Shown here piece by piece: positions 2,010 to 58,435 of a DNA stretch of 64,000 bases (positions are counted from its first letter, which is position 1; the number at the start of each line of letters is the position of its first letter). The stretch is from Salinibacterium xinjiangense (GTDB lineage Bacteria > Actinomycetota > Actinomycetes > Actinomycetales > Microbacteriaceae): positions 1,192,585 to 1,256,584 of the forward strand of contig NZ_BMLC01000001.1 of assembly GCF_014645015.1 (NCBI RefSeq), in the 5' to 3' direction. The translations under genes and the position numbers were made by a program. The notes under the pieces are model-generated. The model was not told the origin of the DNA. It saw nothing but the letters and a program-made list of their open reading frames with translations, and made no database searches.

Positions 2010-2830
2010 TCCGCCAGTTCGAGCCGGAGACGGACGAAACCTCCAGCCCGACGCTCACGCCCAGTCTGCTGAGCGGAATGCTCGCGATGCTCGCCTCGCT
2101 GCCCGTCGAGCTCGCAGCTGGCTGATCCGCTCGAGGCATTTAATAGAATGTCCGCTTACCGCTGCGCAGCTCCGATAGATAGGCACCATTGACCGTCTAA
2201 TCAGGAGCCAATAGGTCAACTTGACCCGCTGGGCCCAAACCCAGACAAACGCTGGACTCGGCAGAACCCGACAGGTCGCATTTCGGCCCGAAATGGGCCT
2301 GAAATGGGCCTGAAACTGTTATGAAGCGTGGGCAGAAACCACGACGGGTCGGACAGCACTCCGATAGAGATACCGGTCAGGCTTATTATTTCTGGTGCAC
2401 CCGGAGCGATGTGAAACCCTCGGCCCATTGATCCGTAGTCGAGAGCCGGATGCCCGGAGTTATGCGGAAGTGGCCGAAAACCTATGAAAACACTGGTGAC
2501 AGGGCTCGACTTCGGTGACGCGAGTTGACCAGGATGCTGCCCAAGTGTGGGTGAAATGTCGGCATGGTGTTTTCTGAGAAATAATCAGTGATGCGTCTAT
2601 TCGACCGAGGACCCATCACGTTCGGACGAGTGCCACGGACTACGTCAGAACAGCACCATGCCATTCCCATCTGAACCATCTCTCCACACCTGAATACGCG
2701 GAACACTCTGGGCAAACATTCATTTCGGCCTAATCTTCACACCGAGACAATGACCAAACCGCAGGGCAGGGCAGGGCAAAACTGTCACCTATCCGTGCAG
2801 CAGACCCGTGTGAGGGATCTCATTCCGGTC
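2010..2830. repeat. Repeat block R1 with degenerate tRNA-Arg 3'-end (att-like)
   Basis: This block resembles the one that ends at the intact tRNA-Arg gene (57985-58435). The left arm (2010-2392) shares stretches such as 'AATAGGTCAACTT', 'CCCAGACAAACGCTGG' and 'GTGGGCAGAAACCAC'. At 2393-2440 there is a diverged copy of the tRNA-Arg 3' end, from 'TGGTGCACCCGGAG' to 'TTGATCCGTAGTC'. The right arm (2441-2570) has 'GGAGTTATGCGGAAGTG' and 'GTGTGGGTGAAATGT', which also follow the tRNA fragment at 14395, 48422 and 54087. Further sequence to 2830 ('GACAATGACCAAACCGC') matches 48618-48670. The copy cannot fold as a tRNA because the 5' half is absent. Confidence 0.75.
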
Positions 2831-3429
2831 TGGTAAGACCGAAGTTCAAAACAAAAGCTTGCGCACACCCTCAACGAGAAGCCGACACACGTTGCTCATA
2901 AGCCCGCATCGGTTTAGAGCGGGATTTCGCATCGTCTCGTAGAACGATCGGTTTACGTACAGACGCTAGCTGTGCAATTGACTTTGGAGGGGAGGATATC
3001 GGCGAGTCCCAGTCGACCGTCCCGTCTTGGAAAGACCTGCCGCGACTTGAGAGACACAAGATGCAACGAGATGGCTTTATGGGACAGCAACTCCCGCCGG
3101 AAATGCTGGGGGCCTCGGCGCAGTGGGGCCAGCTGCTAGTGCCTCGTTAATCTTTAGATTTTCGAGATGCGGGCCTTCTGAGGGTTGACGTGCCCTCTCG
3201 CCCTCGGTGTGCACACACTTCGCGTGGCCGAGGCCAGGCCTACTAGCCGAAACTATCGCCACAGGCGATCGCGCTCAGAACCTGACCTGCGGGGCCCACT
3301 CACGCCAGAAAAGATTTCAGCCGCAGCCAAAGCGGACCGACTGTCTTTCCAGCTCAATCGCTCACACGAGCCCACGGGACTGTCTCAAGTGCGGCCGAAC
3401 CGCAGGTACACGGCTATGAATTGTGCTTC
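2831..3429. other. Non-coding stretch, no gene recognised
   Basis: Short frames here show no family features and no plausible ribosome binding sites. It lies between two repeat families and is probably decayed accessory DNA. Confidence 0.45.
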
Positions 3430-3640
3430 TGACCAAAATTTTTGGCGGAACCGGTGGGATTTGAACTCTTATCCGGCCCCAGCAATCCAGCGATCGCAGC
3501 CAGAGAACCCAGTGTTTTAGAGCGATTAAGGCACTCTGAGACCCATCACGACACTGGTCGGTTTCAGGCGGTTGCGGGGTTTCTGTGGGGGCTGGGAAGT
3601 CCTGATACATAACAGCCCTGATACATGACATAGCGCTGTA
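3430..3640. repeat. Second repeat family (R'), copy 1, with tRNA-like 3' end
   Basis: Direct repeat partner of 14100-14300. Both contain 'GGGACCGGTGGGATTT' or a close variant, then 'CCCAGTGTTTT', and 'GGGGTTTCTGTGGGGGCTGGGA' further on. Read on the minus strand, 3448-3475 looks like a tRNA 3' end: a TTCAAAT loop, CCCAC, an acceptor strand CGGTTCC, then GCCA. The matching 5' half is missing, so it is a fragment from a tRNA other than tRNA-Arg. The two copies bracket the sugar-acid operon. Confidence 0.6.
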
Positions 3641-3645
3641 CTCGT

Positions 3646-4000
3646 GTGATGTATCAGGACATCGGTGGCACTTTGTTCATCAAGACATCGCTGACACTCG
3701 AGGGTGCGAGGTTGCCGCCCTCAGGGTCGGCCGGAGCTGACGTATTCGTTCCCAGTCTTGGCCAGCGGTGCTTCATAAGCTTGGCGCCTTGGTCGCCGAA
3801 GTCGATCAGGTGCTGGTCGGTCTCGACGAGATAGACGCTCTGGCCGAGGAGCCGGGTGACATGGAACTGTGCTTGCCGGACCTGGACGATTCCGTTGGCG
3901 GCGACCGTGGTGCGGCGGATGCCATCCCAGCAGACAGGACGGATTTGGTCTCCTGGCCTCCCAAGCCTGCATCGAGGCCATCCCCAAAGACCTCATTTTG
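3646..4000 (-). mobile_element. IS481-family remnant (transposase C-terminal domain only)
   Basis: Translated on the minus strand with one frame kept, this yields a stretch with 'VAANGIVQVRQAQFHVTRLL', 'YLVETDQHLIDFGDQG' and 'HRWPRLGTNT'. These align with the C-terminal domain of the fuller IS481 copy at 14.6-15.8 kb ('RGNGTIFLRGIRFHVSRTLA', 'YLVETETSLLVFDDQG', 'EHPWPEPGTK'). The left end 'ATCAGGACATCGGTGGCACTTT' resembles that element's terminal sequence. The catalytic part is gone, so this is a dead fragment. Confidence 0.7.
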
Positions 4001-4043
4001 TCCCACCCGTCAGCCGATTAACCAACTTCCATGGGCAGTACAA

Positions 4044-4913
4044 CTAGAGAACCGAGGATGTTAATTCAAACCCGCGAAAGTCGGTATCTACCGAGAAGAC
4101 TGCTCCTGCGAGCGAATCCCCCTCAGCCGATTCAACTTGAGAGGTTGTGATAAACAAAGTTGACCGGTCCAGACCACCGAAGGCACAGGAGCTCACTTGA
4201 GAGGTGGGTAGCGCTATGACGTGGGTCAGCGACCCGGACGGATCGTATCGCTGTACCCTGCCCGATCCCCAGAGCGCGGCCCATACCCCGCCATCTGTGT
4301 CTACGGCCAAGCCATCGGGGGTTCCATCGTCCGCCTCGAACATGACGAATGGCTCACGCGTGGTGCGGCCGCCGTCAACCGTGAGGATGTCTATCCGCCG
4401 AGTTGCGCTGTCGACGTAGTAGTTTCCAACGCCGTAAGGACGCGGCACAAATCCGTTTGAAACCGTAACGTTTGTCAAGATGACTTCGGGTTTTAGGTGT
4501 TGGTCAATTCGATATAGTGCCCCAAGACTTGGCGTGGCGTCATTGGCCATGGTTCCGGCATACAAGATCCCGTGCTCGTCGCAGCCGCCCTCGTTGAATC
4601 TCGTTCGTCGGTCATGAAGTATCTTCCGCCGATCGACTACCGCGAATTCCTCGTTAAGGATCAGAATTGAGTTGGCTGACCCCGCAACCCATCCACCGTC
4701 TCGTCGCGGCCTTATAAACGCGAGCACGTCATCGACATGAAGAATCGTCGTCCGTGGGGGACGATGATGAGCGATGCCATCGATGATCACAAGATTGCCC
4801 TCAAGCATGTCCACGAAAAGCAATCGGGACTCGGCCGCATCCCAAACTGGACCTTCCGCATGCTGGAATCGGTCCTGGGTTAGTGGGGTCGCGTCGGTCA
4901 GCACGGTCGGCAT
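4044..4913 (-). CDS. SMP-30/gluconolactonase family sugar lactonase
   Basis: 289 residues, normal for the SMP-30/gluconolaconase/LRE six-bladed propeller family, which hydrolyses sugar-acid lactones with a bound divalent metal. Family landmarks are 'HAEGPVWDAAESRLLFVDM' near the N terminus (Glu metal ligand), 'FNEGGCDEHGILYAGTM', 'VSNGF' and 'DGTPDGLAVDTDGGVWAA', where the Asp is the expected general base. It lies downstream of the KDG kinase/aldolase genes and in the same direction, so it fits between a sugar dehydrogenase and a sugar-acid dehydratase. The exact sugar is not readable. The middle region 'PRPYGVGNYYVD' departs from the usual 'SPDGKTLYFAD', which may reflect a divergent blade. 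Confidence 0.88.
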   Translation of the reverse strand: MPTVLTDATPLTQDRFQHAEGPVWDAAESRLLFVDMLEGNLVIIDGIAHHRPPRTTILHVDDVLAFIRPRRDGGWVAGSANSILILNEEFAVVDRRKILHDRRTRFNEGGCDEHGILYAGTMANDATPSLGALYRIDQHLKPEVILTNVTVSNGFVPRPYGVGNYYVDSATRRIDILTVDGGRTTREPFVMFEADDGTPDGLAVDTDGGVWAALWGSGRVQRYDPSGSLTHVIALPTSQVSSCAFGGLDRSTLFITTSQVESAEGDSLAGAVFSVDTDFRGFELTSSVL

Positions 4914-4916
4914 CGA

Positions 4917-5039
4917 CTAGCCTGCCATCCCGCCGAAATTGTGGGGGAAGCCAACCCGAGTCCATCTCACCGGGGTGCCTTCGGCGGCCGCGCTGCTCTC
5001 AGACGAGACTGTGACACCAAGAAGCACGTGCACTCTCAT
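4917..5039 (-). CDS. Small ORF of unknown function (40 aa)
   Basis: A 40-residue frame with a good GGAGG ribosome binding site 7 bases before ATG. The ATG overlaps the stop of the preceding small frame (ATGA) and its stop lies 3 bases before the lactonase start. Sequence: hydrophobic start 'MRVHVLLGVTVSS', end 'RVGFPHNFGGMAG'. Not recognised. The coupling to the lactonase suggests translation, but it may also be the tail of a decayed gene that once filled the 4.9-5.26 kb gap. Confidence 0.35.
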   Translation of the reverse strand: MRVHVLLGVTVSSESSAAAEGTPVRWTRVGFPHNFGGMAG

Positions 5040-5212
5040 TCCCGTGCCTCCACCACTAGCGGCACGTTGGTCGCATCGCGGCCACCGAAGTTTGTCGCGA
5101 CGATGATTACGCCCTGAGGGGTCTCCGTGGCGGAATCCTTGAGTGGCCACCGAGAGATCCGCCGGTTTGTTTGAGAATTCGCGCCCATGGCCCTACCGCA
5201 GATGCTTGTCAC
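5036..5212 (-). CDS. Small ORF, possible C-terminal remnant of a decayed gene (58 aa)
   Basis: A GTG-initiated frame whose end 'QGVIIVATNFGGRDATNVPLV' reads like structured protein rather than random sequence. Another short frame starts at the KDG kinase stop (ATG overlapping TGA at about 5264) and stops just upstream. The three pieces in series look like one gene broken by frameshifts. The family was not identified. Confidence 0.3.
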   Translation of the reverse strand: MTSICGRAMGANSQTNRRISRWPLKDSATETPQGVIIVATNFGGRDATNVPLVVEARE

Positions 5213-5261
5213 GGACGCTCACTCTCTGATGTCCGTGGGTGGAATTTGGATTGTGAATTGG

Positions 5262-6212
5262 TCATCGACTCACCCATTCGTTGGCATTGGCGCTTTCGAC
5301 GTCGCTCCATCGGGGAGCACCACCCCAATCGCCAGGTGTCATGCAGACGAAGCCTGCCACGATCGCCGCGGTCTCGAGCCACTGAACGGGAGCTCCGCCC
5401 TTGGCTCGCGCGGCGAGGTATCCGGCGGCAAAGGAATCGCCTGCGCCTACGGTGTCAATGACGGGGACTTTGTAGGCCGCGACCTCTATGTACTTGCCGT
5501 TGATGACGGCATCGGCCCCATCTGCGCCGCGTTTGATGATCACCTCGGGTATCCGAAATTTCTCGGATAGTCTTGCCGCCAACATGTTGTCGGTGGTACC
5601 CGATGGCGCGATCATTCTGGCCTCATCGATTCCGGCAAACAAGATCGACGAACGATCGGCAATATAGGTGTACTCGTCGCGCGCGTCATCGCGGCCCCAG
5701 AGTGATTCACGATGGTTTATGTCGAACGAAAGCGCCGTCCCAACGCGGGAAGCGAGGTCGGCGGCGTGGCGTACCGCGTCGCGCGCTGTATCTGAGAGTG
5801 CGAGCGTTATACCGGTGAGGTGAACAACCTCGCTGTCTGCAATCGCCCATTCGTGAACATCGCCAACGTTAAGTCGGGATCCCGCACTTCCTCGACGGTA
5901 GTAGGACACCTTGGTGTGCTCGACGCTCCGCATCTCTTTGAGTAGGAGGCCCGTGGGGGCGACCGCGTCCACCGTCACCTGCGCGTGGACCCCTTCGCCG
6001 CGCAATTCCTTGGTTATGCGACGGCCAAGCGAATCATCCCCGACACGACCGACCCACATGACATCAAGCCCAAGACGTGCTGCCCCAATTGCCACATTGG
6101 ACTCGGCACCGCCGATGCTGACCTGACAGGTGGACGCACTTTCGAAGAGGGTTCCCGTGGGGGTTTGGATGACGCCCATGCTCTCACCCAAGGTGTAGAG
6201 GTTGTAGGTCAC
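5262..6212 (-). CDS. kdgK: PfkB-family sugar kinase, probable 2-keto-3-deoxygluconate kinase
   Basis: 316 residues, the usual length for ribokinase/PfkB kinases. The N-terminal signature 'IGGAESNVAIGAARLG' (33-48) and the C-terminal signature 'DTVGAGDSFAAGYLAAR' (253-269, catalytic base Asp259) are complete. 'YYRRGSAGSRL' (104-114) is typical of KDG kinases. Family role: phosphorylation of 2-keto-3-deoxy-sugar acids with ATP to the 6-phosphate. The start overlaps the stop of the KDPG-type aldolase gene by 4 bases, so kinase and aldolase are translationally coupled, which supports the assignment. Galactonate-type KDGal kinase is the main alternative. Confidence 0.85.
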   Translation of the reverse strand: MTYNLYTLGESMGVIQTPTGTLFESASTCQVSIGGAESNVAIGAARLGLDVMWVGRVGDDSLGRRITKELRGEGVHAQVTVDAVAPTGLLLKEMRSVEHTKVSYYRRGSAGSRLNVGDVHEWAIADSEVVHLTGITLALSDTARDAVRHAADLASRVGTALSFDINHRESLWGRDDARDEYTYIADRSSILFAGIDEARMIAPSGTTDNMLAARLSEKFRIPEVIIKRGADGADAVINGKYIEVAAYKVPVIDTVGAGDSFAAGYLAARAKGGAPVQWLETAAIVAGFVCMTPGDWGGAPRWSDVESANANEWVSR

Positions 6213-6844
6213 GATACGAGGTCCGAGACCGAGGCGGATGCTCGCGCGTAAGTTGCGCCAATTTCCGCAAATCGGCGTTCAATAATCATTGCTCGCGGTG
6301 CCAACCAGGAAGCCCCAACGGCTACGACTGACTTGATTGCCAGGTATGCCCGGACATCGGCCTCGGCGATGCCGCCGGTCGGCATGAATCTCGTATCTGG
6401 AAAGACCTCGGCGAACGCTCGAAGGGCAGCAACTCCTCCGGTCGCAGCCGCCGGGAAGAACTTCACCAACGTGACATCATTAGCGGCGGCCATCATGATC
6501 TCGGTCGCAGTCGCAACACCGGGTATGGCCAGGACTCCGAGATTCTGGGCCTCTGTGACAATGTCAGATCGGAACCCGGGCGACACGGCGAAGTCGACAC
6601 CGGCCGCACAGGAGCGCCGGAGATCCTCAACGTTTGTCACCGTCCCGACACCGACGGAAAGCCCACCCTGATTGATGGCTGACTCGATAGCACGGAAGGC
6701 GTCCGGAGTACGAAGGGTAATTTCGATTGCCGTCGCCCCCGAATCCGCCAAAACGCGCGCGAGTTGCGCAGCGGAACGAAAATCGTCAATCACCACAACG
6801 GGAATCAACCCGACCGGATATCCGCTCCTTCCCGCGCTATCCAT
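6209..6844 (-). CDS. eda: KDPG/KDPGal-type 2-dehydro-3-deoxy-phosphogluconate aldolase
   Basis: 211 residues, matching class I KDPG aldolases. The Schiff-base lysine sits in 'TLVKFFPA' (Lys128); the catalytic Glu41 and phosphate or substrate Arg45 lie in 'EITLRT'. Also present are 'GVGTVTN' and 'FMPTGGI', the phosphate site. It cleaves 2-keto-3-deoxy-6-phospho-sugar acid to pyruvate and glyceraldehyde 3-phosphate. The gene overlaps the alcohol dehydrogenase upstream by 8 bases and the kinase downstream by 4 bases. KDPG and KDPGal cannot be told apart from sequence; the enolase-superfamily dehydratase in the operon would set the stereochemistry. Confidence 0.9.
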   Translation of the reverse strand: MDSAGRSGYPVGLIPVVVIDDFRSAAQLARVLADSGATAIEITLRTPDAFRAIESAINQGGLSVGVGTVTNVEDLRRSCAAGVDFAVSPGFRSDIVTEAQNLGVLAIPGVATATEIMMAAANDVTLVKFFPAAATGGVAALRAFAEVFPDTRFMPTGGIAEADVRAYLAIKSVVAVGASWLAPRAMIIERRFAEIGATYARASASVSDLVS

Positions 6845-7877
6845 TGGTGCCCATCAGCGGCAGAGCAACCATCATGCGCTTGACATAGGCATCGGGCTGC
6901 GCCATCACACCGGCAAATGCCAGAAGAGCGTCTTCGAGGGGGAACAGCTCCAGCGGAAACGCGCTCACGTCAATCGCTCCCGAGACTAACGCTTCAACCG
7001 CCTCGGCAAAGTCCTTCATGGTGTGTGACTTGGAGGCGATCAGCGATAGCTCGCCCTCCACCAGACGCCACGCGCTGAGTCCGAGATCTCGAGTGCTCAC
7101 ACCCAGGAGAACAACAGACCCGCCGGGTCGTGTCGCATCCACGGCGTCGCTGATGGCACTCGGGTTTCCTGTTGCTTCGAAACAGGCATCGAACTCTGCT
7201 CGTTTCTGCCCGGCGAGTTCCGTATCAATCACATGAAACCCGAGCTGGGAGGCGAGTTCACGTCGTGCGGCCAAACATTCCACCAGCGTGACGCTGTGTC
7301 CGCTATTTCGAAAGAGAAGCGCAAGCAGAAGGCCGATTGCACCGGCCCCGAAGATCGCGATCGAGTCACGTGGTTGAAGGTTTATTCGCGAGACCGCGTG
7401 AACCGCCACCGCCAATGGTTCGGCGAACGCTAATACTCTCGGGTCAACCGACTCAGCGACGGCGATACAAGAGGATGCTGGAACGACGACAAATTCTGCC
7501 AGCCCACCATTGTCTTGTAGCCCCAAAGCCACTACTGAGGGACAGTTGTTGGATCTCTGATCACGGCATGCCGCGCAGCTACCACAGGGGATGTTGACTT
7601 CTACAGCGACGAGCTGCCCCCGCTCGAAGGGGGCATCTCTGCCGGCGTCGATGACTCGTCCGCAGAATTCGTGGCCGAGCACCAACGCCCTTTGCGCCTC
7701 CCCCTGAACAAATTCTGCGGGAATCGCGATCGGACCTTCCCGCCATTCCTCGATGTCGGTGCCACATATTCCACACGCCTCAACCGCAAGAAGTACGTCG
7801 ATCGGCCGATCAACAGCCGGGATGTCGACAATGTCGAGTCGAATGTCTCGCCTGCCATGCCACCTGAGCGCGAGCAT
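6837..7877 (-). CDS. Zinc-dependent medium-chain alcohol/polyol dehydrogenase
   Basis: 346 residues from the ATG at 7877, chosen over an upstream ATG at 8009 that would overlap the dehydratase gene and lacks family sequence. Catalytic zinc site: 'ACGICGTDIEEW' (Cys35) and 'GHEFCG'. Structural zinc cysteines: 'CGSCAACRDQRSNNC'. NAD(P) Rossmann motif: 'FGAGAIGLLLA'. The family oxidises sugars, polyols or sugar acids (threonine, sorbitol, galactitol, idonate types). Within this operon it is a candidate for the first oxidation of the free sugar to a lactone, or for a sugar-acid oxidation. Spacing to the dehydratase stop is 25 bases. Confidence 0.87.
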   Translation of the reverse strand: MLALRWHGRRDIRLDIVDIPAVDRPIDVLLAVEACGICGTDIEEWREGPIAIPAEFVQGEAQRALVLGHEFCGRVIDAGRDAPFERGQLVAVEVNIPCGSCAACRDQRSNNCPSVVALGLQDNGGLAEFVVVPASSCIAVAESVDPRVLAFAEPLAVAVHAVSRINLQPRDSIAIFGAGAIGLLLALLFRNSGHSVTLVECLAARRELASQLGFHVIDTELAGQKRAEFDACFEATGNPSAISDAVDATRPGGSVVLLGVSTRDLGLSAWRLVEGELSLIASKSHTMKDFAEAVEALVSGAIDVSAFPLELFPLEDALLAFAGVMAQPDAYVKRMMVALPLMGTNG

Positions 7878-7902
7878 CTTGTTACCCAGCTCAGTGAATT
7901 CG

Positions 7903-9162
7903 CTAGAGATTTGAGATCCTTCGAATCGTTGCGGGTGAAGAAAGAAATTCGTCGCGAAGCACCACACCGTGGCCGGCTGATTTTGCGGGAGTGATTGCAC
8001 CATCCGCAATCACGGGCAGTCCATCGGCAATGTCGTGATACCAGCCGTGGTAGAAAGCGCGTGCAACCTCCTGGACGTATCCGTTGGGTATTGCGGTCAC
8101 GAAGTGGGTCGCGACCGCAAGCGCAACGGGTCCTGTGCAGTCGTGCGGTGCGATCGGAATCCCGTATTGTTCCGCAATTGATGCGGTCTTCAGACCTGGA
8201 GTGATTCCACCGCTCCACCCGAGATCGACAATGGCAATGTCAATGCTCCGAGTGTCGAGCAGTGCCCGGTATGGACTCAACCCACCCCCAATGCTCTCTC
8301 CGACCGCGATGGGAATGTTTGTCGATTGCTTAAGAGAGTGCAGGGCGTGGGAGTGGTCTGCTCGAAGCGGATCCTCAATCCATGCAAGTTCGAAGGGCTC
8401 AAGTGCCTTGACGAGGCGCCCAGCGCCGCGAAGTGTCCACAACGAGTGCAACTCAAGATAAAGATCCATCGCATCACCCACCGCGTTTCGAATTTCATCC
8501 AGAACGTGCAGTCCGAAGTCGAGAGAGGTCTTGTGATCGCCGGCGCTCGCCTCCGCTGCGAGGTCGAACGGCCAAACCTTCATTCCTGTGTAGCCCTCGC
8601 CGAGGAGCTCCTGGGCTAGCTCACCCGGCCGCGTGAGGAAGGCCTCAAGGTCTTCGTAGCGCTTCCCCGATCCTAACCCGATCCCCCAGTTCGATGAGGA
8701 TTGACGCGACTGCGCGTTGACGTAGTCGTTACCGGCGCAGGTGTTGTAGGTGGAAATACTCTCTCGAGTCGGCCCGCCAAGCAGCTCCCGAAGGGGAAGA
8801 GCAGCACGTTTTGCGAGAAGGTCCCACAGCGCGATGTCTATTGCAGAATTGCCTCTGACTTCAGAACCAGAGCCGGAATAGCCCACATATCCAGAGAGCA
8901 GCCGCGACGTCTTTGCCGGTGAAGTCGGGCCACGATGCTCTCTGAGCAGCGGTACAGCAACGTCGTGAATGTACGCTTCAACGCTTGTGGATCCATAGAA
9001 GGTCTCGCCAAGTCCAGTGTTTCCCGCGTCATCGTGTATTGCAACAAAGGTGACGTTGGATTGCAGCGGAGTGCGGATGGTCTCCACCGCAGTGATTCTG
9101 GGCATCATTGCGGTGCTGATTTCACTTGGCAAGACTCCAGCCATCTCGTCGTTTTCGATCAC
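7903..9162 (-). CDS. Enolase-superfamily sugar-acid dehydratase (mandelate racemase type)
   Basis: 419 residues. Metal ligands are in 'YLELHS' (Glu237), 'WIEDPL' (Glu263) and 'VGES' (Glu289); 'IAPHDCTGPV' supplies the conserved His340 region. The position of the usual KxK lysine pair reads 'GMKVWPFD', a variant seen in several sugar-acid dehydratases such as mannonate, galactonate and related types. The role is dehydration of an aldonic acid to the 2-keto-3-deoxy acid that feeds the kinase/aldolase pair downstream. A GTG start at 9162, with AAGGAAGG upstream and a 4-base overlap with the permease stop, is preferred; an ATG at 9105-9108 just before 'PRITAVETI' is an alternative. Confidence 0.88.
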   Translation of the reverse strand: MIENDEMAGVLPSEISTAMMPRITAVETIRTPLQSNVTFVAIHDDAGNTGLGETFYGSTSVEAYIHDVAVPLLREHRGPTSPAKTSRLLSGYVGYSGSGSEVRGNSAIDIALWDLLAKRAALPLRELLGGPTRESISTYNTCAGNDYVNAQSRQSSSNWGIGLGSGKRYEDLEAFLTRPGELAQELLGEGYTGMKVWPFDLAAEASAGDHKTSLDFGLHVLDEIRNAVGDAMDLYLELHSLWTLRGAGRLVKALEPFELAWIEDPLRADHSHALHSLKQSTNIPIAVGESIGGGLSPYRALLDTRSIDIAIVDLGWSGGITPGLKTASIAEQYGIPIAPHDCTGPVALAVATHFVTAIPNGYVQEVARAFYHGWYHDIADGLPVIADGAITPAKSAGHGVVLRDEFLSSPATIRRISNL

Positions 9163-11044: not shown

Positions 11045-11072
11045 CTGACTGTCCGCGATCTTTCTTGGTGCG

Positions 11073-47569: not shown

Positions 47570-47575
47570 GTGGTT

Positions 47576-48100: not shown

Positions 48101-48229
48101 ATCCCGTTCACGCAACGTCATTGTCGTCACTCGCTGCGCATCGGCTGGCGACCTTAGGCTGCTGCGCCTGCGCAATGCCAGTGCAGATGCCGCCTCGGCC
48201 CGGCTGCCAGCGTCGGTTCCGGCAGATTG

Positions 48230-50404: not shown

Positions 50405-50529
50405 ATTAGTGGACAGTGGACCCCGTGAATTCCGATGACCCCACGATGCCCTACTCTTACGACACAAGAGATTTTCACCGCAGCATCATGCCGTGGTACC
50501 CGAGTGAATCTCCCCCACCGGGGGCTTGC

Positions 50530-51819
50530 ATGCGCGCACACCGTCACAGCCGATCTGCGCTCGCGGGTTTGGTCGTGCTACTGACAATCCTGGCCGGATC
50601 CGCCAGCCTTACCGGCACGCCCAGCGCGGCGGCCGCGGCCAGTACGGCCACTGGTTCGTTGAGCCCGAACCTCGGCCCGATGGGTTCCACCTCAACCGTC
50701 AACGGACGCGGATTCCCAAAGAACACAGCGGGCACGGTAACCATAGGCAGTACCAGTCTTGCCATGAAGACCAGGGCCGACGGAAACTTCAGCACCGACC
50801 TCACGGTTCCCGACGCCACAACCAGACTCCTGCCGGTGACAGCAACGCTGGGCAAAGTGACGGCCAGCACATACTTCACCGTTACTTTCGCCGCCGTCTC
50901 CACCGCCGCGGACCCGTCCGACGCCACCCTCACCCAGCAGCCCTCTATGACGAGCGCCCCGATCAGCACGTCGAAGCTCCGCTTCGGGGTCGCCACCCCG
51001 GGTGGCGCCCTAGCGAACTCCGAACTCGACGCGGTCGCGGTTCTGGTGAACGAGAACCCCTCGATAGTGATGTCGTACAAGGACTTTAACCAGTCCGTTT
51101 CGATCGCCGAGCTCGACTCCGTTCGGGCGCGCGGCGCCACGAGCTTGATCACCTGGGAGCCCTGGGCCTGGGGCGGCGGAATCAACCAGCCGGCTTACTC
51201 CTCTGACAACATCACCGCCGGCGCCCACGACGCGTACCTAACCAAGTGGGGCCAGGCGCTGGCCACCTGGGGTAAGCCGGTGATGCTGCGCTATGGCCAC
51301 GAAATGAACGGCAACTGGTACCCCTGGTCGGACGGCGTGAACGGCAACACCACGGGCGACTACGCCGCGGCCTGGCGCCATGTGCACGATGTCGTCGTCG
51401 CCGCCGGTGCCACGAACGTATCTTGGGTGTGGAGCCCGAACATCCCGTACACCCGTTCCACACCGCTGACCGGCCTGTACCCGGGCGCCACCTACGTCGA
51501 CGTCGTCGCATTGGACGGATACAACTGGGGCACCTCGGCCGCCTGGAGCACCTGGCAGGCGCCGGCGACCCTCTTCGACGCCGGGCTCGCCCAGCTGCGG
51601 ACCCTCGCGCCCGGGAAGCAAATCATTATCGCCGAAACCGCCTCAGCCGAAGCCGGCGGATCAAAAGCCGAGTGGAACACCGCCCTAGTGGCCTACCTGG
51701 CGGAGCAAACCGACGTGACCGGCTTCGTCTGGTTCCACTTCCTCAAAGAAACCGACTGGCGCATCAACAGCTCAACGACATCCACGACCGCCCTCAACAA
51801 AGCGCTGGCTGCTCGTTAG
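50530..51819 (+). CDS. Secreted GH26 endo-beta-mannanase-like hydrolase with TIG domain
   Basis: About 429 residues from ATG 50530, where the signal peptide 'RSALAGLVVLLTILAGSASL' begins; upstream ATGs at 50416 and 50488 give no better signal. An IPT/TIG-like beta domain (about 45-145) precedes the GH26 barrel. Catalytic acid 'MLRYGHEMNGNWYPWSDGVN' and nucleophile 'KQIIIAETASAEAGGSK' are both present, with 'WVWSPNIP' and 'GFVWFHFLKETDWRIN'. Family substrates are beta-mannan or mixed-linkage glucans. In such gene contexts GH26 proteins often accompany exopolysaccharide synthases and may trim a self-made polymer. Confidence 0.87.
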   Translation: MRAHRHSRSALAGLVVLLTILAGSASLTGTPSAAAAASTATGSLSPNLGPMGSTSTVNGRGFPKNTAGTVTIGSTSLAMKTRADGNFSTDLTVPDATTRLLPVTATLGKVTASTYFTVTFAAVSTAADPSDATLTQQPSMTSAPISTSKLRFGVATPGGALANSELDAVAVLVNENPSIVMSYKDFNQSVSIAELDSVRARGATSLITWEPWAWGGGINQPAYSSDNITAGAHDAYLTKWGQALATWGKPVMLRYGHEMNGNWYPWSDGVNGNTTGDYAAAWRHVHDVVVAAGATNVSWVWSPNIPYTRSTPLTGLYPGATYVDVVALDGYNWGTSAAWSTWQAPATLFDAGLAQLRTLAPGKQIIIAETASAEAGGSKAEWNTALVAYLAEQTDVTGFVWFHFLKETDWRINSSTTSTTALNKALAAR

Positions 51820-51897
51820 TGCCATGCGACTGCAGTCACCCCGCGCCTCTTTGCCAACAGTGCCCTTGACAATAGCCCGTCCAAGAAAAAGGTAAGA

Positions 51898-52020
51898 ATG
51901 TTCGCGAACGAAATAGTCGGAATTGACAACGCGGTTATTCGAGGGATGAGCCAGCTAAACCGGGTATCAACGTCTCAGTTGGGCGACACCTTTATCGGAC
52001 TAATCGACGACAATGCCTGA
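51898..52020 (+). CDS. Small ORF (40 aa), possible tail of a lost STAS gene
   Basis: ATG 51898 after AAAAGGTAAG; the stop overlaps the kinase start by 8 bases, exactly the overlap that the STAS and kinase genes have at 49382-49389. The product contains 'VIRGMSQLNRVSTSQLGDTF' and is not recognisable by itself. By position it could be the 3' end of a STAS gene that was deleted, now translated as a leader peptide. Confidence 0.4.
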   Translation: MFANEIVGIDNAVIRGMSQLNRVSTSQLGDTFIGLIDDNA

Positions 52021-52423
52021 GTGCACGATCGCCTTCCGCACCCCTCCCGATGAAGTCGGCGTCGTGCATTCCGCTCTCGAGACGCTATGGGCGCGGGAAG
52101 GCGACGTTGACGAGATGGACCGGATGATGTTCGAGACAGCGATCGTTGAACTCGTTTCCAACGTCATCCAGCACGGCACGTCCGAAACCACGATCATTTG
52201 TAACCTCACACTTTCAGCGAATGAAGCCACGCTGAAGGCTGTTCTCGAAGATACTGCGTCTCCTGCACGAATTGACTTGAGTCCACGGGACATGCCGGAC
52301 GAGTTCGCGGAGACCGGCCGCGGTCTGGCGTTCATCCAGGCACTCGTCGATGACTTCGAGTACCACCGAATGCAAGATCGCAACATCTGGACTCTTACCA
52401 AGCTGCGCCACCGCAAACCATGA
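52013..52423 (+). CDS. RsbW/SpoIIAB-like anti-sigma factor kinase (HATPase), copy 2
   Basis: 136 residues. N box 'FETAIVELVSNVIQHGTSET', G box 'FAETGRGLAFIQALVDDFEY', end 'DRNIWTLTKL'. Clearly related to copy 1 (48949). ATGA overlap with the phosphatase gene downstream. Kinase and phosphatase acting on one STAS protein form a partner switch; here the STAS partner would have to be the copy at 49382 or another one elsewhere. Confidence 0.88.
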   Translation: MPECTIAFRTPPDEVGVVHSALETLWAREGDVDEMDRMMFETAIVELVSNVIQHGTSETTIICNLTLSANEATLKAVLEDTASPARIDLSPRDMPDEFAETGRGLAFIQALVDDFEYHRMQDRNIWTLTKLRHRKP

Positions 52424-53712
52424 CCGGTCAATCACACAACAAGCACTCGACGATCCGAGCGCTGTCGATTTCGGCGGTGATGTTGGATGGGTTTCCGCCG
52501 CTGGTCAAACAGCTCCCGGTTGTACTGCTATTCACGATCGCCATCTTGGTCTCGCTCATCGTGCCCACTGCCCGCATCACCAGCGTGCCTGCTCTGATCG
52601 CAGCCACGGTGTTATTGGCCGTCGCGACCGGCCTTGCGGGTTTTCTGCCACGAGTGGACCTGGGCGAGCGGTCGGTCCTGGTAGTTCCTGTGATCGATTT
52701 TCTCGTCATCGGAGTTCTACGCTTTGCAACAGGTGAGAGCTCATCGATTTTCGCATCGCTCGCTATCCTGCCAGCCGTTTGGATCGCCGCGTCACCCGGC
52801 CGCCGCCACATCGCCTACGCGTTTGTTGGTGTGCTCGGTGGGCTGCTCGTACCCTTCTTGCTCGGGTCGACCCTCGAGAACAATCCAAACGAGATCGCAC
52901 GTGGCCTGTTCTCCGCTTGCGCATTCACCATGGCTGCCGCCGTGGTCAACGATCTCGTCCGTCTCGCTCGCGTAAATATTAGCGATCTCCAGGCCAAAGA
53001 ACAGGCGACACTCACGGAACTGCAGCGAGCCTTTGTGGTGCAGCAGGCCCTTTTGCCTACAAGCGGCATGGGTGCCACAGGCTATGACTTTGCAGGCATG
53101 TGCCTTCCCTCTAAAGCGATTAGCGGCGATTTTTTCGACTGGTACACAGCCAGTAACGGCATCGCGATTACCTTGGGGGACGTGATGGGAAAAGGTGTCG
53201 GAGCTGGCATCATCGCCGCCACAGTTCGCGCCGTCGTGCGAAGCGCCCGCAACCATGACGACCTCGCCATCGCGCTTGATCGCGCATCTGATGCCCTCGC
53301 GACGGACTTAGCTGACGCGTCGACGTTCGCGACAATGTTCCACGCTCGACTCGACGAGAACACCGGGATCGTCCGCTACATCGATGCCGGACACGGTCTG
53401 ACTATCCACGTCCGCGCCGAGGGGGCTTGGAGCCGGCTCACCTCCTTCGACCTTCCCATCGGACTGATCTCCGATGAGGCGTGGACGGTCGCCCAGTTCC
53501 GATTAGAACCCGGTGACACGCTTGTCAGTTGTAGCGACGGCATCCTGGACCTCTATGACGGCACGGTCGAATCCCTCCAGCACATCGCAGACATCGTCGA
53601 TTCCTCCGAGGATGCCGCCGATGTCCTCGACCGGGTTCGCGCGGTCATCACAGGCGCCGACTTGACCGACGATGACATCACCGTCGTTGTCCTTCGTCGC
53701 CTTGCCGTGTAG
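52420..53712 (+). CDS. Membrane-bound PP2C/SpoIIE-type phosphatase
   Basis: 430 residues. The N-terminal part (about 25-185) has five or six hydrophobic helices ('LPVVLLFTIAILVSLIVP', 'VLVVPVIDFLVIGVL', 'YAFVGVLGGLLVPFLLG'). A short coiled linker 'ISDLQAKEQATLTELQRAF' leads to the SpoIIE domain with 'SKAISGDFFDWY', 'LGDVMGKGVGAG' (metal Asp), 'DAGHG' and 'VSCSDGILDLYDG'. RsbU-type role: dephosphorylation of a STAS antagonist in response to a signal sensed by the membrane part. Coupled by ATGA to the kinase gene. Confidence 0.9.
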   Translation: MTGQSHNKHSTIRALSISAVMLDGFPPLVKQLPVVLLFTIAILVSLIVPTARITSVPALIAATVLLAVATGLAGFLPRVDLGERSVLVVPVIDFLVIGVLRFATGESSSIFASLAILPAVWIAASPGRRHIAYAFVGVLGGLLVPFLLGSTLENNPNEIARGLFSACAFTMAAAVVNDLVRLARVNISDLQAKEQATLTELQRAFVVQQALLPTSGMGATGYDFAGMCLPSKAISGDFFDWYTASNGIAITLGDVMGKGVGAGIIAATVRAVVRSARNHDDLAIALDRASDALATDLADASTFATMFHARLDENTGIVRYIDAGHGLTIHVRAEGAWSRLTSFDLPIGLISDEAWTVAQFRLEPGDTLVSCSDGILDLYDGTVESLQHIADIVDSSEDAADVLDRVRAVITGADLTDDDITVVVLRRLAV

Positions 53713-53879
53713 ATAACTCGGGTTCTGCACTACAAGCGGCCTGTCGGGCATCACTATATAGCGCGGCGTGGCATCTCCCGCCAAGGCACTCACAGCTGAA
53801 CTGGCAAGGACGAGCAGAAGGGCGAAAATTCCAGACGTGCCCTACAGCTTGGTTACCTCTCTTGGTGTGGAGATCAGGC
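53713..53879. other. Short gap, possible remnant of an exported protein (minus strand)
   Basis: The minus strand reads 'GIFALLLVLASSAVSALAGD', which resembles a signal peptide, in a frame with an early stop. No gene is called. Confidence 0.3.
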
Positions 53880-54293
53880 AGGGATGGATGTTTGCTCAGA
53901 GGTCAATAGGTCACCTTGGCCCAGTGGGCCAGAACTCAGACAAATAGTGGGAGATCACACGCAGAAAAGCCGCATTCGCGGCCTGAAATCGGTCCCGAAT
54001 GTTTTCAAGTGTGGGCAGGATGTGGGCAGAAGCCACAACAGGTCCGACCGCATTCCAGAGGAAGTGAAGGTCAGGACTGTTATTTATGGTGCGCCCGGAG
54101 GGATTTGAACCCCCGGCCTATTGATCCGTAGTCGAAAGCCAGATACCCAGAGTTATGCGGAAGTGGCTGAGAAACCGCCAAAACACTGGTGACTGGGCGC
54201 GATCCCGGTGACACGAACTGACCGGGATGCTGCTCAAGTGTGGGTGAAATGTGGGCACGGCTTTAGTGATTACTGCTCATTTTGTGTTGTTAT
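53880..54293. repeat. Repeat block R5 with perfect 47-bp tRNA-Arg 3' end
   Basis: 54087-54133 is identical to 58360-58406, the 3' end of the intact tRNA-Arg from CCA to the anticodon loop. The identity continues to the left almost without change for about 85 bases (54000-54086 against 58272-58359). The right arm has 'CAGAGTTATGCGGAAGTGGC' and 'GTGTGGGTGAAATGTGGGCA'. It is the youngest-looking copy. Confidence 0.85.
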
Positions 54294-54672
54294 GCTTGAA
54301 GATGTTGGTGACAGTTCTGCATCAGAACATCGATGGCAGTCAGAGGGTTCTGGGTCGCCGTCCTCCGGGCCAACCGGAGCGAACGTATTTAGTTCCGGGC
54401 TTGGCGGGCCTGGATGATGCCGTCCCCTGCGACGGTCGCGTAGCGGATGCCCTCCCAGTCAACCTGTCGCTGGAAGTTGATCCAGCCGGGAAATCTCCGA
54501 TGGAATCGGTCGGTCTTATCACTCTGGTTGAGCTGATCACGCTGGCCCTGAAACTCCTCGAGTGTTGCAGCGAGGGGATGCTCGTCGAGGAAGCGAAACA
54601 GTGCCCGGCAGGGGCCCTATTTGGTTCCCCGTTTCGGGGTCTTGCGGGGGTGCTGGGCTGCGCTAGATTTTA
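54294..54672 (-). mobile_element. IS481-family remnant
   Basis: The end region 'CATCAGAACATCGATGGCAG' recalls the terminal repeat. Nucleotide stretches such as 'CTCGTCGAGGAAGCGAAACAG' (minus strand 'LFRFLDEHPLAATLEEF') match the region after the catalytic Glu of the IS481 transposase, and '54370-54400' matches its C-terminal end. The frame is broken throughout. Confidence 0.65.
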
Positions 54673-54783
54673 GCTACACAGCCCCCCGGTCCCGTCGGGT
54701 GTAGGTCTGCTGACTTTCCCGACGTAGCGGGTTTCGCTAGGTGCGGGTGGACGCGATATTTTCGCGCCAAGAAAGGTCCTCCC

Positions 54784-57700
54784 ATGAGAGCACTGCACGG
54801 TATCGGTCGAGGTAATGGGCGTCGACGGATTACATGGCGGACACGGTCGGCGGCGCTGATCGGCGCGGTCACCCTTCTGGTCCCGTTAGCTGTACTCGGC
54901 GGCGCGGCCCCGGCGTCAGCCGCCACGATCTACGGCGTGACCGACTCCATACCCGTCGGCAACCGCCCGATCGGGGTGGCAGTCAACGAGACCACAAACA
55001 CCATCTACGTTGCCAACATTGACGACGGGACGGTATCGGTGATTGACGGGACCGCCAACGCGGTGACCACCGTGCCCGTCGGCAACCGCCCGGCCTTGGT
55101 GGCAGTCAACGAAACCACGAACACCATCTACGTCACCAACAATGGCGACGATACGGTATCGGTGATTGACGGGGGCACCACAGCAGTGACCACCGTGCCC
55201 GTCGGCAGCTCCCCGATCGGGGTGGCAGTGAACGAGACTACGAACACCATCTACGTTGCCAACAACAGCGACGGGACGGTATCGGTGATTGACGGGGCCA
55301 CCACAGCAGTGACCACCGTGCCCGTCGGCAGCGGCCCGTACGGGGTGGCAGTCAACGAGACCTCAAACACCATCTACGTGACCAACGCTAACGACGGGAC
55401 GGTATCGATAATTGACGGGGCCACCACAGCGGTGACCTCCGTGATGGTCGGCAGCGGCCCGTACGGGGTGGCAGTGAACGAGACCACGAACACCATCTAC
55501 GTGACCAACTTTGGCGACAACACGGTATCGGTGATTGACGGGGCCACCACAGCAGTGACCACCGTGCCCGTCGGCAGCTCCCCGTACGAGGTGGCAGTGA
55601 ACGAGACCACGAACACCATCTACGTCACCAACAACAGCGACGGGACGGTATCGGTGATTGACGGGGCCACCAAAGCGGTGACCTCCGTGACCGTCGGCAG
55701 CGGCCCGTACGGGGTGGCAGTCAACGAGACCACGAACACCATCTACGTCGGCAACTCTGTCGACGGTACGGTATCGGTGATCGGGCCAGCAACGGCACCG
55801 GATGCACCCACGGATGTTTCAGCCACGCCCGGTAACGGGCAGGCTACGGTGACTTTCAGCCCATCGGCCCGTGACGGTGGTTCTGCCATCACCGAGTACA
55901 CGGTCACCGCCAGCAACACCGCAACACCAGCCCGTGGCGGGCAGACTGTCTCCGGCACCGGCAGCCCAATCGTGGTCACTGGTTTGACCAACGGTGACAG
56001 CTACACCTTCACGGTGACCGCAACCAACGCCGTCGGCACCAGTGCTGCGTCCGCCGCATCCACCCCCATCGCACTAGCAACAACACCTGGCGCACCGACG
56101 GATGTTTCGGTGACAGCCGGCAGCAGGCAGGCGACGGTGGCTTTCACCCCTCCAGCCAGTGACGGTGGTTCGACGATCACCGGATATACGGTCACCGCCA
56201 CCGACACCACGACACCAGCCAACGGTGGGCAGACTGCCTCCGGCACTGGCAGCCCGATCGTGGTCAAAGGTTTGACCAACGGTGACAGCTACACCTTCAC
56301 GGTGACCGCAACCAACGCCGTCGGCACCAGTGCTGCGTCCGCCGCATCCACTCCCGTCACACCGGCAATAACACCTCGTTCACCGACCGGCTACACCGTG
56401 ACCGACACCATACCCACCGGCAGCGTCCCGGCTGGGGTGGCGGTGAACGACGCTACGAACACCATCTACGTCACCAACTTCGGCGGCGGGACGGTATCAG
56501 TCATTGACGGGGCCACCAACGCGGTGACCAACACCGTGACCGTCGGCAGCTACCCGATCGCGGTGGCAGTCAACAAGACCACAAACACCATCTACGTCAC
56601 CAACAACAGCGGCGACACGGTGTCGGTGATTGACGGGGCCACCAAAGCGGTGACCACCGTGACCGTCGGCAGCCGCTCGTTCGGGGTGGCAGTCAACGAG
56701 ACCACGAACACCATCTACGTCACCAACCTTGACGACGGGACGGTATCGGTAATTGACGGGACCACCAACGCGGTGACCAACACCGTGACCGTCGGCAGCG
56801 GCCCGGTCGGGGTGGCAGTCAACGAGACCACGAACACCATCTATGTCGCCAACAACAGCGACGGGACGGTATCGGTAATTGACGGGACCACCAAAGCGGT
56901 GACCAACACCGTGACCGTCGGCAGCAACCCGTGGATGGTGGCAGTCAACGAGACCACGAACACCATCTACGTCACCAACGGTGGCGACGGGACGCTATCG
57001 GTGATTGACGGGGTCACCAGAGCGGTGACCTCCGTGACCGTCGGCAGCTTCCCGATCGGGGTGGCAGTCAACGAGACCACGAACACCATCTACGTCACCA
57101 ACAACAACGACGGGACAGTATCGGTGATTGACGGGGCCACCAAAGCGGTGACCTCCGTGACCGTCGGCAGCGGCCCGTACGGGGTGGCAGTCAACGAGAC
57201 CACATACACCGCGTACGTGACCAACACCGGTGACAACACGGTGTCGGTGATTGCCCTACCGGCAACGGTACCGGGTGCACCGAGGGATGTTTCGGTAACG
57301 GCCGGCGATGGGCAGGCGACGGTGACTTTCACCCCTCCAGCCGACGACGGTGGTTCGGCGATCACCGGATACACGGTCACCGCAACCGACACGACACCGG
57401 CCGATGGTGCACAGGCTGCGTCCACGGCTGGCAGCCTGACTGCGACGGCAGCATTCGCTAACGGTACGTCGACTGTGTCCGGCACGGGCAGCCCGATCGT
57501 GGTCACCGGTTTAACCAACGGCAACAGCTACACCTTCACCGTGACTGCAACCAACGCTGCCGGAACCGGCGCCACCGCAGCCACCTCCGCCGCCGTCACA
57601 CCGGCACCATCGGCGGTAAACCCAACACCCATCCCACCGGCACCCGTCGCACCAACAGCAGTCACACCCGCAGGATCAGTGCTGGCGCACACCGGGTCGG

Positions 57701-57807
57701 AGCTGAAGCTCCCCCTGGGCCTGGCAGGGCTCCTACTGACAGCCGGACTGGTTGTGCTCGGAAGCGCACGAGTGCGCCGCCGCGCACAGCAACAACACAC
57801 CAGCTGA
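54784..57807 (+). CDS. Sortase-anchored surface protein with two seven-bladed YVTN propellers and Fn3 domains
   Basis: 1007 residues. Signal peptide 'RSAALIGAVTLLVPLAVLGG', then 'AAPASA'. Seven repeats of about 41 residues (each with 'VAVNETTNTIYVTN' and 'GTVSVIDG') form propeller one (about 50-335). Two fibronectin-III domains follow ('PGAPTDVSVTAGSRQATVAF'). Seven further repeats form propeller two (about 540-830), then a third Fn3 domain, a Pro-rich linker, and the sorting signal 'LAHTG' with a hydrophobic helix and 'RVRRRAQQQHTS'. The protein is expected on the cell wall, where such propellers bind surfaces, proteins or glycans. The repeats are nearly identical at DNA level, so copy number may change by recombination. 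ATG 54784 is the only start with a signal peptide. Confidence 0.88.
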   Translation: MRALHGIGRGNGRRRITWRTRSAALIGAVTLLVPLAVLGGAAPASAATIYGVTDSIPVGNRPIGVAVNETTNTIYVANIDDGTVSVIDGTANAVTTVPVGNRPALVAVNETTNTIYVTNNGDDTVSVIDGGTTAVTTVPVGSSPIGVAVNETTNTIYVANNSDGTVSVIDGATTAVTTVPVGSGPYGVAVNETSNTIYVTNANDGTVSIIDGATTAVTSVMVGSGPYGVAVNETTNTIYVTNFGDNTVSVIDGATTAVTTVPVGSSPYEVAVNETTNTIYVTNNSDGTVSVIDGATKAVTSVTVGSGPYGVAVNETTNTIYVGNSVDGTVSVIGPATAPDAPTDVSATPGNGQATVTFSPSARDGGSAITEYTVTASNTATPARGGQTVSGTGSPIVVTGLTNGDSYTFTVTATNAVGTSAASAASTPIALATTPGAPTDVSVTAGSRQATVAFTPPASDGGSTITGYTVTATDTTTPANGGQTASGTGSPIVVKGLTNGDSYTFTVTATNAVGTSAASAASTPVTPAITPRSPTGYTVTDTIPTGSVPAGVAVNDATNTIYVTNFGGGTVSVIDGATNAVTNTVTVGSYPIAVAVNKTTNTIYVTNNSGDTVSVIDGATKAVTTVTVGSRSFGVAVNETTNTIYVTNLDDGTVSVIDGTTNAVTNTVTVGSGPVGVAVNETTNTIYVANNSDGTVSVIDGTTKAVTNTVTVGSNPWMVAVNETTNTIYVTNGGDGTLSVIDGVTRAVTSVTVGSFPIGVAVNETTNTIYVTNNNDGTVSVIDGATKAVTSVTVGSGPYGVAVNETTYTAYVTNTGDNTVSVIALPATVPGAPRDVSVTAGDGQATVTFTPPADDGGSAITGYTVTATDTTPADGAQAASTAGSLTATAAFANGTSTVSGTGSPIVVTGLTNGNSYTFTVTATNAAGTGATAATSAAVTPAPSAVNPTPIPPAPVAPTAVTPAGSVLAHTGSELKLPLGLAGLLLTAGLVVLGSARVRRRAQQQHTS
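54930..57265. repeat. In-gene tandem repeats of 123-126 bp (two arrays of seven)
   Basis: Unit core 'ACGAACACCATCTACGTCAC' recurs with few changes at 55120-55740 and 56450-57210. The array is split by two Fn3-coding units at 55790-56390 that are themselves repeated. Confidence 0.85.
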
Positions 57808-57848
57808 ACCAAAGCTCATCCGGGGTCGCCACCCGCAAAGCTGACGTG

Positions 57849-57897
57849 CTGACGTGCCCCATCTCCGGTTACCGGACCATGGGGCACGTCAGTTTTC
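57849..57897. terminator. Rho-independent terminator
   Basis: A 14-bp perfect stem CTGACGTGCCCCAT / ATGGGGCACGTCAG (57849-57862 and 57879-57892) is followed by TTTTCG. The loop has its own small GGTTACC-type hairpin. It lies 42 bases after the surface-protein stop. Confidence 0.85.
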
Positions 57898-57984
57898 GTT
57901 TAACTCACCGACGCAGCATTGGTTTAGCGCCGTCCCCGCCCCCGGTGCCCGCCTCCGATCAACAAGGACGACGACGAGCACGTC

Positions 57985-58359
57985 CTTCCCTCGATCAGTT
58001 CAAGTCGGCAACGGAGCAACTTCAGCTCGACGCTCACACACAGCCTGCTCAGCAGAATGCTCACGTCGCTGCCCGTCGACGTCAAGGCGGGCTGGTCCGC
58101 TCACGACATCTCATCACATGCCCGCTTACCGCCTACGCCCCGATAGACGAACACCATTGACCATCTACTCCGAGGTCAATTGGTCAACCTCGCCGAGTGG
58201 GCTAAAACCCAGACAAACACGGGGCTGAACACAGCCGGCCAGGGCAAAACCCGCACGAAAATCGGTCCCGAATGTTTTCAAGTGTGGGCAGGATGTGGGC
58301 AGAAGCCACAACAGGTCCGACCGCATTCCAGAGGAAGTGCAGGTCAGACCTGTTATTTA
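57985..58359. repeat. Repeat block R6, left arm at the intact tRNA-Arg
   Basis: Carries the same left-arm motifs as R1, R3, R4 and R5: 'GAGGTCAATTGGTCAACCTC', 'TTTTCAAGTGTGGGCAGGAT', 'CACAACAGGTCCGACCGCAT' and 'ACCTGTTATTTATGGTGCGC'. The first 200 bases (57985-58165) match 2010-2210 beside R1. In place of the right arm, the tRNA 5' half follows, as expected for a chromosomal junction. Confidence 0.8.
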
Positions 58360-58435
58360 TGGTGCGCCCGGAGGGATTTGAACCCCCGGCCTATTGATCC
58401 GTAGTCAATTGCTCTATCCGCTGAGCTACGGGCGC
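58360..58435 (-). tRNA. tRNA-Arg(ACG), CCA encoded
   Basis: On the minus strand: acceptor GCGCCCG/CGGGCGC, D-arm GCUC-AGCGGAUA-GAGC, anticodon stem AUUGA/UCAAU with loop CUACGGA (anticodon ACG), T-arm GGGGG-UUCAAAU-CCCUC, discriminator A and encoded CCA (58360-58362). All stems pair, with one G-U in the T stem. This gene is the insertion point for the repeat-bounded accessory blocks on its left. Confidence 0.97.

Follow-up and report, generated by a model that had tools for sequence, protein, structure and literature searches.

The 64,000-nucleotide stretch of the Salinibacterium xinjiangense genome (3.02 Mb) considered here, C1:1192585-1256584 (the window), harbours a single recognizable tRNA gene, tRNA-Arg(ACG), and six repeat places in one orientation which separate blocks of genes. 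The region is likely to represent an array of non-autonomous integrative cassettes located at the 3' end of this tRNA gene and moved by a helper integrase. Six copies, including an exact 47-bp copy at 54087, had been reported in an earlier reading of the DNA from its letters alone (the sequence-only reading); all were recovered by a repeat search of the window, their positions being set by a site profile. The shared site (about 370 bp) consists of a left arm, a core corresponding to the tRNA-Arg(ACG) 3' end, and a right arm:

R1: 2207-2576, plus strand, left arm, degenerate core with a 1-base insertion, and right arm
R2: 14382-14568, plus strand, core (42/47) and right arm, left end of other type
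R3: 30956-31111, plus strand, left arm only, core lost beside an IS481-like end at about 31125
R4: 48236-48605, plus strand, complete site (left arm, core, right arm), core 40/47 versus the tRNA
R5: 53901-54271, plus strand, complete site with left arm, exact core at 54087-54133, and right-arm repeats at 54239 and 54250
R6: 58174-58430, plus strand, left arm (58174-58359) and tRNA, paired repeats at 58283 and 58294
Left-arm inverted repeat at R6: 58310-58354, minus strand, probable terminator of the tRNA, as judged from its sequence
tRNA-Arg(ACG) gene: 58360-58435, minus strand, predicted integration target, its last 47 bp (58360-58406) forming the common core

The site profile agrees with the proposed presence of both arms at R1, R4 and R5 and of a left arm plus tRNA at R6. 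The accompanying claim that all six places include the tRNA 3' end held for R1, R2, R4, R5 and R6, but not for R3, where the left arm alone is present. In case of R1, the ungapped match to the tRNA (30/47) understates the similarity owing to the one inserted base; the core copy of R5 is the only exact one. The limit of the core coincides with the 5' side of the anticodon stem, a position that would fit a crossover in the anticodon loop.

Both arms bear paired TGTGGG-type repeats, which in their sequence resemble the arm sites of tyrosine integrases. The left arm contains a pair of direct repeats offset by 11 bp (TGTGGGCAGGATGTGGGCAG at 58283 of the window), and the right arm carries GTGTGGGTGAAATGTGGGCA. 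Among 66 dereplicated of 75 aligned rows (own genome and relatives), the right-arm repeat ranks first in conservation among 114 20-base windows, the core excluded, and the left-arm repeat 4th of 169, these ranks being descriptive on account of shared ancestry. An inverted repeat is located between the left repeats and the core; after dereplication, 36 copies from the various genomes remain. When folded in the direction leading away from the tRNA, this hairpin has a median folding energy of -28.4 kcal/mol (calculated without shuffled control); two-sided changes occur at 5 of 23 pairs, and 609 of 818 cells pair, i.e., a quarter is unpaired. Since by eye a different hairpin follows the tRNA in insert-free relatives (e.g., genomes G010 and G026), the left arm may serve as a replacement terminator for the tRNA.

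A BLAST search of the genome with the site yielded 8 matches, all on a single strand within C1:1162002-1250990, with E-values (1.6e-12 to 2e-150) that exclude chance. A dispersed repeat family is ruled out by this confinement to one locus. Two of the copies are located left of the window (contig positions 1177684 and 1162002). Thus, the array is longer than the sequence-only reading described and does not end at R1: it begins about 30 kb left of the window and spans about 89 kb, with nine partial or complete sites according to a more sensitive scan. A search with one end motif (ACATCGGT) detected element ends at only three places, 3659, 14598 (just right of R2) and 31125 (interrupting R3), which we take to belong to the insertion sequence (IS) family IS481; an open reading frame (ORF) with an rve domain (IS-type transposase) is present near R2 (14835-15833). 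Because several sites are decayed and no cognate integrase was found in the genome, the array is probably largely idle now, perhaps except for the R5-R6 unit, which is bounded by two perfect cores.

Arm-bearing copies at tRNA-Arg(ACG) are present in 16 of 27 genomes of the genus (own included), several of them partial (among others G007, G009, G018, G019 and G023); the sensitive site profile was applied to fetched stretches only. The arm pattern was matched in Salinibacterium sp. NG253, SWN248 and PAMC 21357, the marine actinobacterium PHSC20C1, Lacisediminihabitans profunda and two metagenome-assembled genomes. At 1e-13, a site match was obtained in 48 of 398 sampled genomes of the family, many at the tRNA itself only, and 6 further genera of Microbacteriaceae contain arm-bearing matches; two candidates per genome were scored, so that these site counts are lower bounds. 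Relatives in Salinibacterium and other Microbacteriaceae hold zero, one or several units at this tRNA. In the arrays inspected for this, site matches share the orientation of the tRNA, except that the palindromic hairpin also matches weakly in reverse in G025 and G006, and only forward matches were used for the comparison of whole arrays. Hence, neither outcome that would speak against the sequence-only reading was encountered: the region is not shared by every relative, and its repeats do not form a dispersed family.

Comparison with empty sites was clean in two of five cases. The insert-free G010 has left and right flanks as in G006 and G020: its joined flanks are identical at 587 of 645 positions to those of G006, which contains an insert of 9,539 bp (two units), and at 588 of 644 positions to those of G020 (insert of 4,986 bp, one unit). 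In G001, a 1.9-kb insert with one predicted gene resides at the tRNA.

A second repeated block (GGGGCCCACGAG..GGCTTCGCGTCC) was observed beside tRNA-Arg(ACG) in G003, G009, G019 and G023, in the latter three together with a copy of no more than roughly 22 bp from the beginning of the core. From its sequence, it possibly represents another insertion class.

Homologous cassettes recur in differing species and neighbourhoods, and homology switches at the core. In whole-array comparison, a Fic-family cassette is common to G006, G025 and G016, and parts of one unit are common to G016 and G023. The second unit of G011 corresponds to the sole unit of G020 (97% identity over 6,845 bp, unit plus flank). 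G012 has two copies of an AbiE-type toxin-antitoxin cassette, of which G017 and G005 have one copy each (for the naming of cassette families, one member each was searched and the remaining members were assigned by homology). The two AbiE copies of G012, with another unit between them, are identical at 2,936 of 2,950 positions inside, apart from 36 gap columns, versus 118/199 on the left and 122/138 on the right outside the core. Likewise, units C and D of G012 agree at 148/148 and 1,937/1,941 positions after the core, but at 160/212 before it. The clean empty sites, the fewer or different blocks in other genomes and the bounding of homology by the core together strengthen the proposal, already made in the sequence-only reading, that units were stacked at one tRNA by site-specific recombination.

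A cassette encoding a 400-amino-acid orphan protein (L070:5583-6785) forms the unit of G001 and recurs in G006, there with an added gene for a protein of 1,474 amino acids (L069:11012-15436). The orphan had no match in Pfam, PADLOC, NCBIfam or sequences of the PDB, and the larger protein none in Pfam, PADLOC or NCBIfam. From its sequence, the orphan might conceivably be a new recombinase, but it is present in just two of the units seen.

Cargo of the window was identified by a Pfam scan of its 40 proteins (strand is not assigned for whole units):

Unit R1-R2: 2577-14381, gluconolactonase-type protein, PfkB kinase, KDPG aldolase, dehydrogenases and enolase-superfamily protein; further genes for a sugar ABC transporter and a GntR regulator
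Unit R2-R3: 14569-30955, aldo/keto reductase, solute-binding protein, GH106-type protein and enolase-superfamily dehydratase; further genes for an amidohydrolase, SDR and FAA hydrolase, and an IS-type (rve) transposase ORF near R2
Unit R3-R4: 31112-48235, alpha-L-fucosidase (31812-33134) and a second fucosidase match below cut-off (44552-47569); further genes for an FAA hydrolase, SDR, aldo/keto reductase, enolase-superfamily dehydratase, DUF5703 protein and solute-binding protein
Unit R4-R5: 48606-53900, GH26 protein, two HATPase_c_2 proteins and SpoIIE-type phosphatase
Unit R5-R6: 54272-58173, fn3/NHL repeat surface-type protein (54784-57807)

The adjacent fucose-type units (14569-30955 and 31112-48235) are paralogous, with partly inverted gene order; identities are 70% for the dehydratase, 67% for a 228-amino-acid ORF, 54% for the FAA hydrolase, 50% for the solute-binding protein and 45% for the aldo/keto reductase. 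The surface-type ORF at 54784-57807 is made of 123-bp and other internal repeats. The cargo is not solely catabolic, as suggested by the sequence-only reading, since elsewhere in the genus toxin-antitoxin, restriction and transport genes are found as well: G025 units carry kdpA, kdpB and a KdpD-type sensor as well as a C4-dicarboxylate transporter, a G017 unit carries an MMPL transporter with TetR regulator, and a type IIG restriction system is encoded in G011. The array of S. xinjiangense has little in common with the units of its relatives.

Units were counted as both-armed if the left site of an interval has a right arm and its right site a left arm. By this definition, 24 units were obtained, 22 of them in the genus (5 of 8 intervals of the own genome; 5 in G012; 2 each in G006, G016, G017 and G025; 1 each in G001, G009, G011 and G020) and one each in G268 and G388. 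Intervals with one arm missing or different were left out (own genome 3; G016 2; G011, G017, G023, G014 and G005 1 each), as were the integrase-bearing elements of G012 and G005. None of the 24 both-armed units matches PF00589 (tyrosine integrase). In the array of S. xinjiangense, both PF00589 and PF00239 are without match between the first site copy and the tRNA, and tblastn with the integrases of G012 and G005 detected nothing. A serine recombinase (PF00239) was found in no array of 11 genomes, except for a 208-amino-acid frame inside the integrase-bearing element of G012. These negatives speak against a hidden integrase in the window and the array, in line with the sequence-only reading; consistently, Pfam revealed no site-specific integrase among the 40 window proteins. 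The same scan detected no conjugation or mobilisation module in the window (other units were sampled, and no relaxase search was made).

A candidate for the helper is encoded in G012 and G005, where an intact frame of 400 codons for a tyrosine integrase (99% identity between the two) is located directly beside tRNA-Arg(ACG). It matches arm-binding, SAM-like and catalytic domains, the arm-binding match being just under the Pfam cut-off. The 3' end of the integrase gene contains CAAGTGTGGGTGAAATGTGGGCA, which is identical to the right-arm repeat of the cassettes. A further copy (85-90% identity), truncated by the contig end, adjoins tRNA-Arg(ACG) in L. profunda. The notion of an integrase acting in trans, put forward in the sequence-only reading, is strengthened by this candidate with its matching arms. 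The integrase-bearing elements of G012 and G005 stand between array and tRNA. That of G012 (about 59 kb, 64 predicted ORFs) encodes MmeI-type restriction, ParA-type, DprA-type and ABC-3C proteins, as judged from a Pfam scan of 20 of the 64 ORFs; phage structural or packaging genes were detected by Pfam neither among these 20 nor among the 40 window proteins.

Specificity of the arm motif was inspected at 13 other integrase loci of the genus. The exact right-arm repeat was present at none of them (one spacing pattern searched). Related pairs are found at genes for tRNAs Phe, Lys, Ser, Arg-CCT and Arg-CCG, or where no tRNA was found. Since other members of this integrase family, at different tRNAs, have such pairs beside them, the motif alone singles out no one enzyme, and resemblance of the tRNA-Ser pair beside an integrase remnant of G001 to the left arm of the cassettes indicates that the motif belongs to an integrase family rather than to a single member. 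Same-family integrases were seen at tRNA-Phe, -Lys, -Ser(CGA), -Arg(CCT) and -Arg(CCG) (L087-L100, L023), several with TGTGGGCAAAATGTGGGCA-like pairs near their 3' ends. The integrase of S. xinjiangense at tRNA-Arg(CCT), 49% identical to that of G012, was rejected as helper, as it uses another tRNA and no arm-pair pattern was detected at its locus. Integrase remnants are located 13-19 kb past the right end of the window (L016:13321-13590 and 18363-18711), one adjoining tRNA-Ser(CGA). The attachment (att) site had no match in a phage collection, IMG/VR lacks the arm pattern in its exact form, and three plasmid records matched at most 14% of the query, in the tRNA-core part only; these searches thus give no sign of a known phage or plasmid source.

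From these observations we infer the action of a helper integrase, circular intermediates, termination at the hairpin and some mode of transfer from cell to cell. Each unit would be organized as right arm, cargo and left arm, such that in a circle, the left arm, core and right arm would together make up an attP-like site. The paired TGTGGG-type arm sites would be bound by a tyrosine integrase, which would recombine the circle into the tRNA gene or into any core already present in the array. Insertion would keep the tRNA intact and supply a new terminator hairpin. The integrase, supplied by a larger element or helper, would mobilize the cassettes either in trans or by accretion.

Several points weigh against the proposed mobilization of cassettes by a helper integrase. 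The integrase (at least 85% identity) occurs in just 2 of 27 genus genomes and in 1 of 12 genomes searched from other genera; because of this rarity, the helper would be absent today for most arrays. At the other integrase loci mentioned above, a related TGTGGG pair occurs in 7 of 13 cases and none was found in 6. Three of the five comparisons with empty sites were not clean, i.e., G001 versus G026 (469/665, diverged left flank, insert of 1,939 bp) as well as G025 (443/677) and G011 (449/654), in which an inner core was used as the distal (left) end. In the window, three cores are degenerate (R1, R2 and R4) and one is lost (R3); one G011 interval, the one holding the type IIG restriction system, contains an integrase fragment; and the left ends of R2 and of the copy at contig position 1177684 resemble, by eye, the integrase-side terminator of G012, so that some units may be decayed integrase-bearing elements.

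The latter observations are those expected if the array were a graveyard of tandem islands, each block having arrived with an integrase at its tRNA end that was later deleted, leaving fixed remnants comparable to cis-mobilizable elements (CIMEs). Decayed cores, terminators resembling integrase ends and the IS481-like ends, two of which (14598 and 31125) are at junctions, do fit decay of some units in S. xinjiangense. As an account of the whole array, this explanation is nevertheless rather unlikely, since the 36 dereplicated left arms form one conserved hairpin type unlike the integrase-side end of G012 and G005, and since tblastn of the integrase against the arrays then fetched located it beside tRNA-Arg(ACG) in these two genomes only. 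Moreover, the one-gene insert of G001 sits at the tRNA, and near-identical duplicates and sharing across species imply recent movement of units with no integrase inside.

Less probable still, and indeed improbable, is a shuffling of blocks by RecA-type homologous recombination between the repeats, with the arms merely inherited. While the repeats are long (~370 bp), roughly 77-93% similar and in direct orientation, the arm repeats are conserved where adjacent bases diverge, homology switches at the core and not over the whole repeat, and first insertions into empty sites, which share the 47-bp tRNA end alone, would be hard to obtain in this way. Composite transposons moved by the IS481-type elements are highly improbable despite the three ends and the rve-type ORF, since the end motif lies beside only 2 of 6 window junctions, the 47-bp duplication is the tRNA end rather than a short target duplication, and the R5 and R6 junctions have precise cores without end-motif match alongside. 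Both processes explain the unit borders less well than a helper integrase.

Among known systems, the CIMEs of streptococcal integrative and conjugative (ICEs) or integrative and mobilizable elements (IMEs) are described, in the sections concerned with them, as retaining att sites and cargo, lacking recombination and conjugation genes, and forming tandems at a gene's 3' end (PMC7563491). The same sections define CIMEs as decay products detectable only in tandem with ICEs or IMEs; in the survey of S. salivarius, they invariably occupied the position most remote from the target gene (PMC7563491). The present units are comparable in their att sites (as judged from sequence, with arms at both ends of 24 units, some cores being degenerate), their cargo, the absence of PF00589 (0/24) and their tandem position at the 3' end of a gene. 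They differ from CIMEs as portrayed there in that integrase-free units directly adjoin the tRNA, mostly in genomes without cognate integrase, and in a standard left end unlike the integrase-side end. As to descent from ICEs or IMEs, two left ends of the own genome do resemble that end by eye. In the arrays of all genomes searched, matches to PF00589 were limited to the integrases of G012 and G005 and the G011 fragment.

The ssrA islands of Dehalococcoides, according to the part of the source devoted to them, are likewise arranged in tandem at one RNA gene, 15 lack an integration module, and accretion was proposed (PMC3146451); in contrast to the serine recombinase and 20-bp repeat reported there, the present site is of the tyrosine type, with arms and a tRNA core. 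Additive islands, i.e., strain-variable cassettes at a conserved tRNA, are outlined for flexible genomic island (fGI) 1 of Alteromonas (PMC4119200), and tRNA cassettes marked by tRNA-end repeats for fGI1 of Ca. Actinomarinales (PMC7771536) and fGI-2 of Ca. Methylopumilus (PMC10872708). The present region shares tRNA-targeted cassettes with tRNA-end repeats that vary among related genomes; in the pertinent parts of these accounts, neither arm sites nor a cognate integrase are described and the mover is not named, whereas here arms and a candidate integrase were identified and borders mapped to the core. Clusters of attC sites lacking integron integrases (CALINs), integron cassette arrays without integrase, are described in the relevant text as mobilisable in trans (PMC11389934). 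They involve attC sites and an integron integrase, as compared to the tRNA-derived core, two arm pairs and phage-type integrase in the present case; assignment to integrons or CALINs was rejected from the make-up of the shared site, a tRNA 3' end flanked by arms, and from the PF00589 matches given above, without use of an attC model. Tycheposons, as introduced in the corresponding passages, are cargo elements at tRNA genes (PMC10872708, PMC11389934), and a gene for a tyrosine recombinase, which the present both-armed units lack, is part of the element that PMC10872708 describes. Among the top-ranked results from open-licence literature, no report of this array was found. The array is a variant of the known additive or CIME-like kind, distinguished by well-delimited arms, a common end that bears a hairpin, and an integrase candidate.

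Going further, one may speculate, though with somewhat more doubt than confidence, that a dedicated integron-like system operates on a tRNA gene. Cassettes with standardised ends, each combining integrase arm sites with a terminator hairpin, and no recombinase of their own would circulate in Microbacteriaceae with the aid of a tRNA-Arg(ACG)-specific integrase borrowed from another element, whether resident or passing through, and the hairpin would restore termination of the tRNA and insulate neighbouring units. As the att site is defined, an integrase candidate is at hand and sites with no, one or several units exist in nature, helper-driven capture of cassettes becomes directly testable. If true, integrase-free cargo can travel as a standardised part, and not solely as debris of dead elements.

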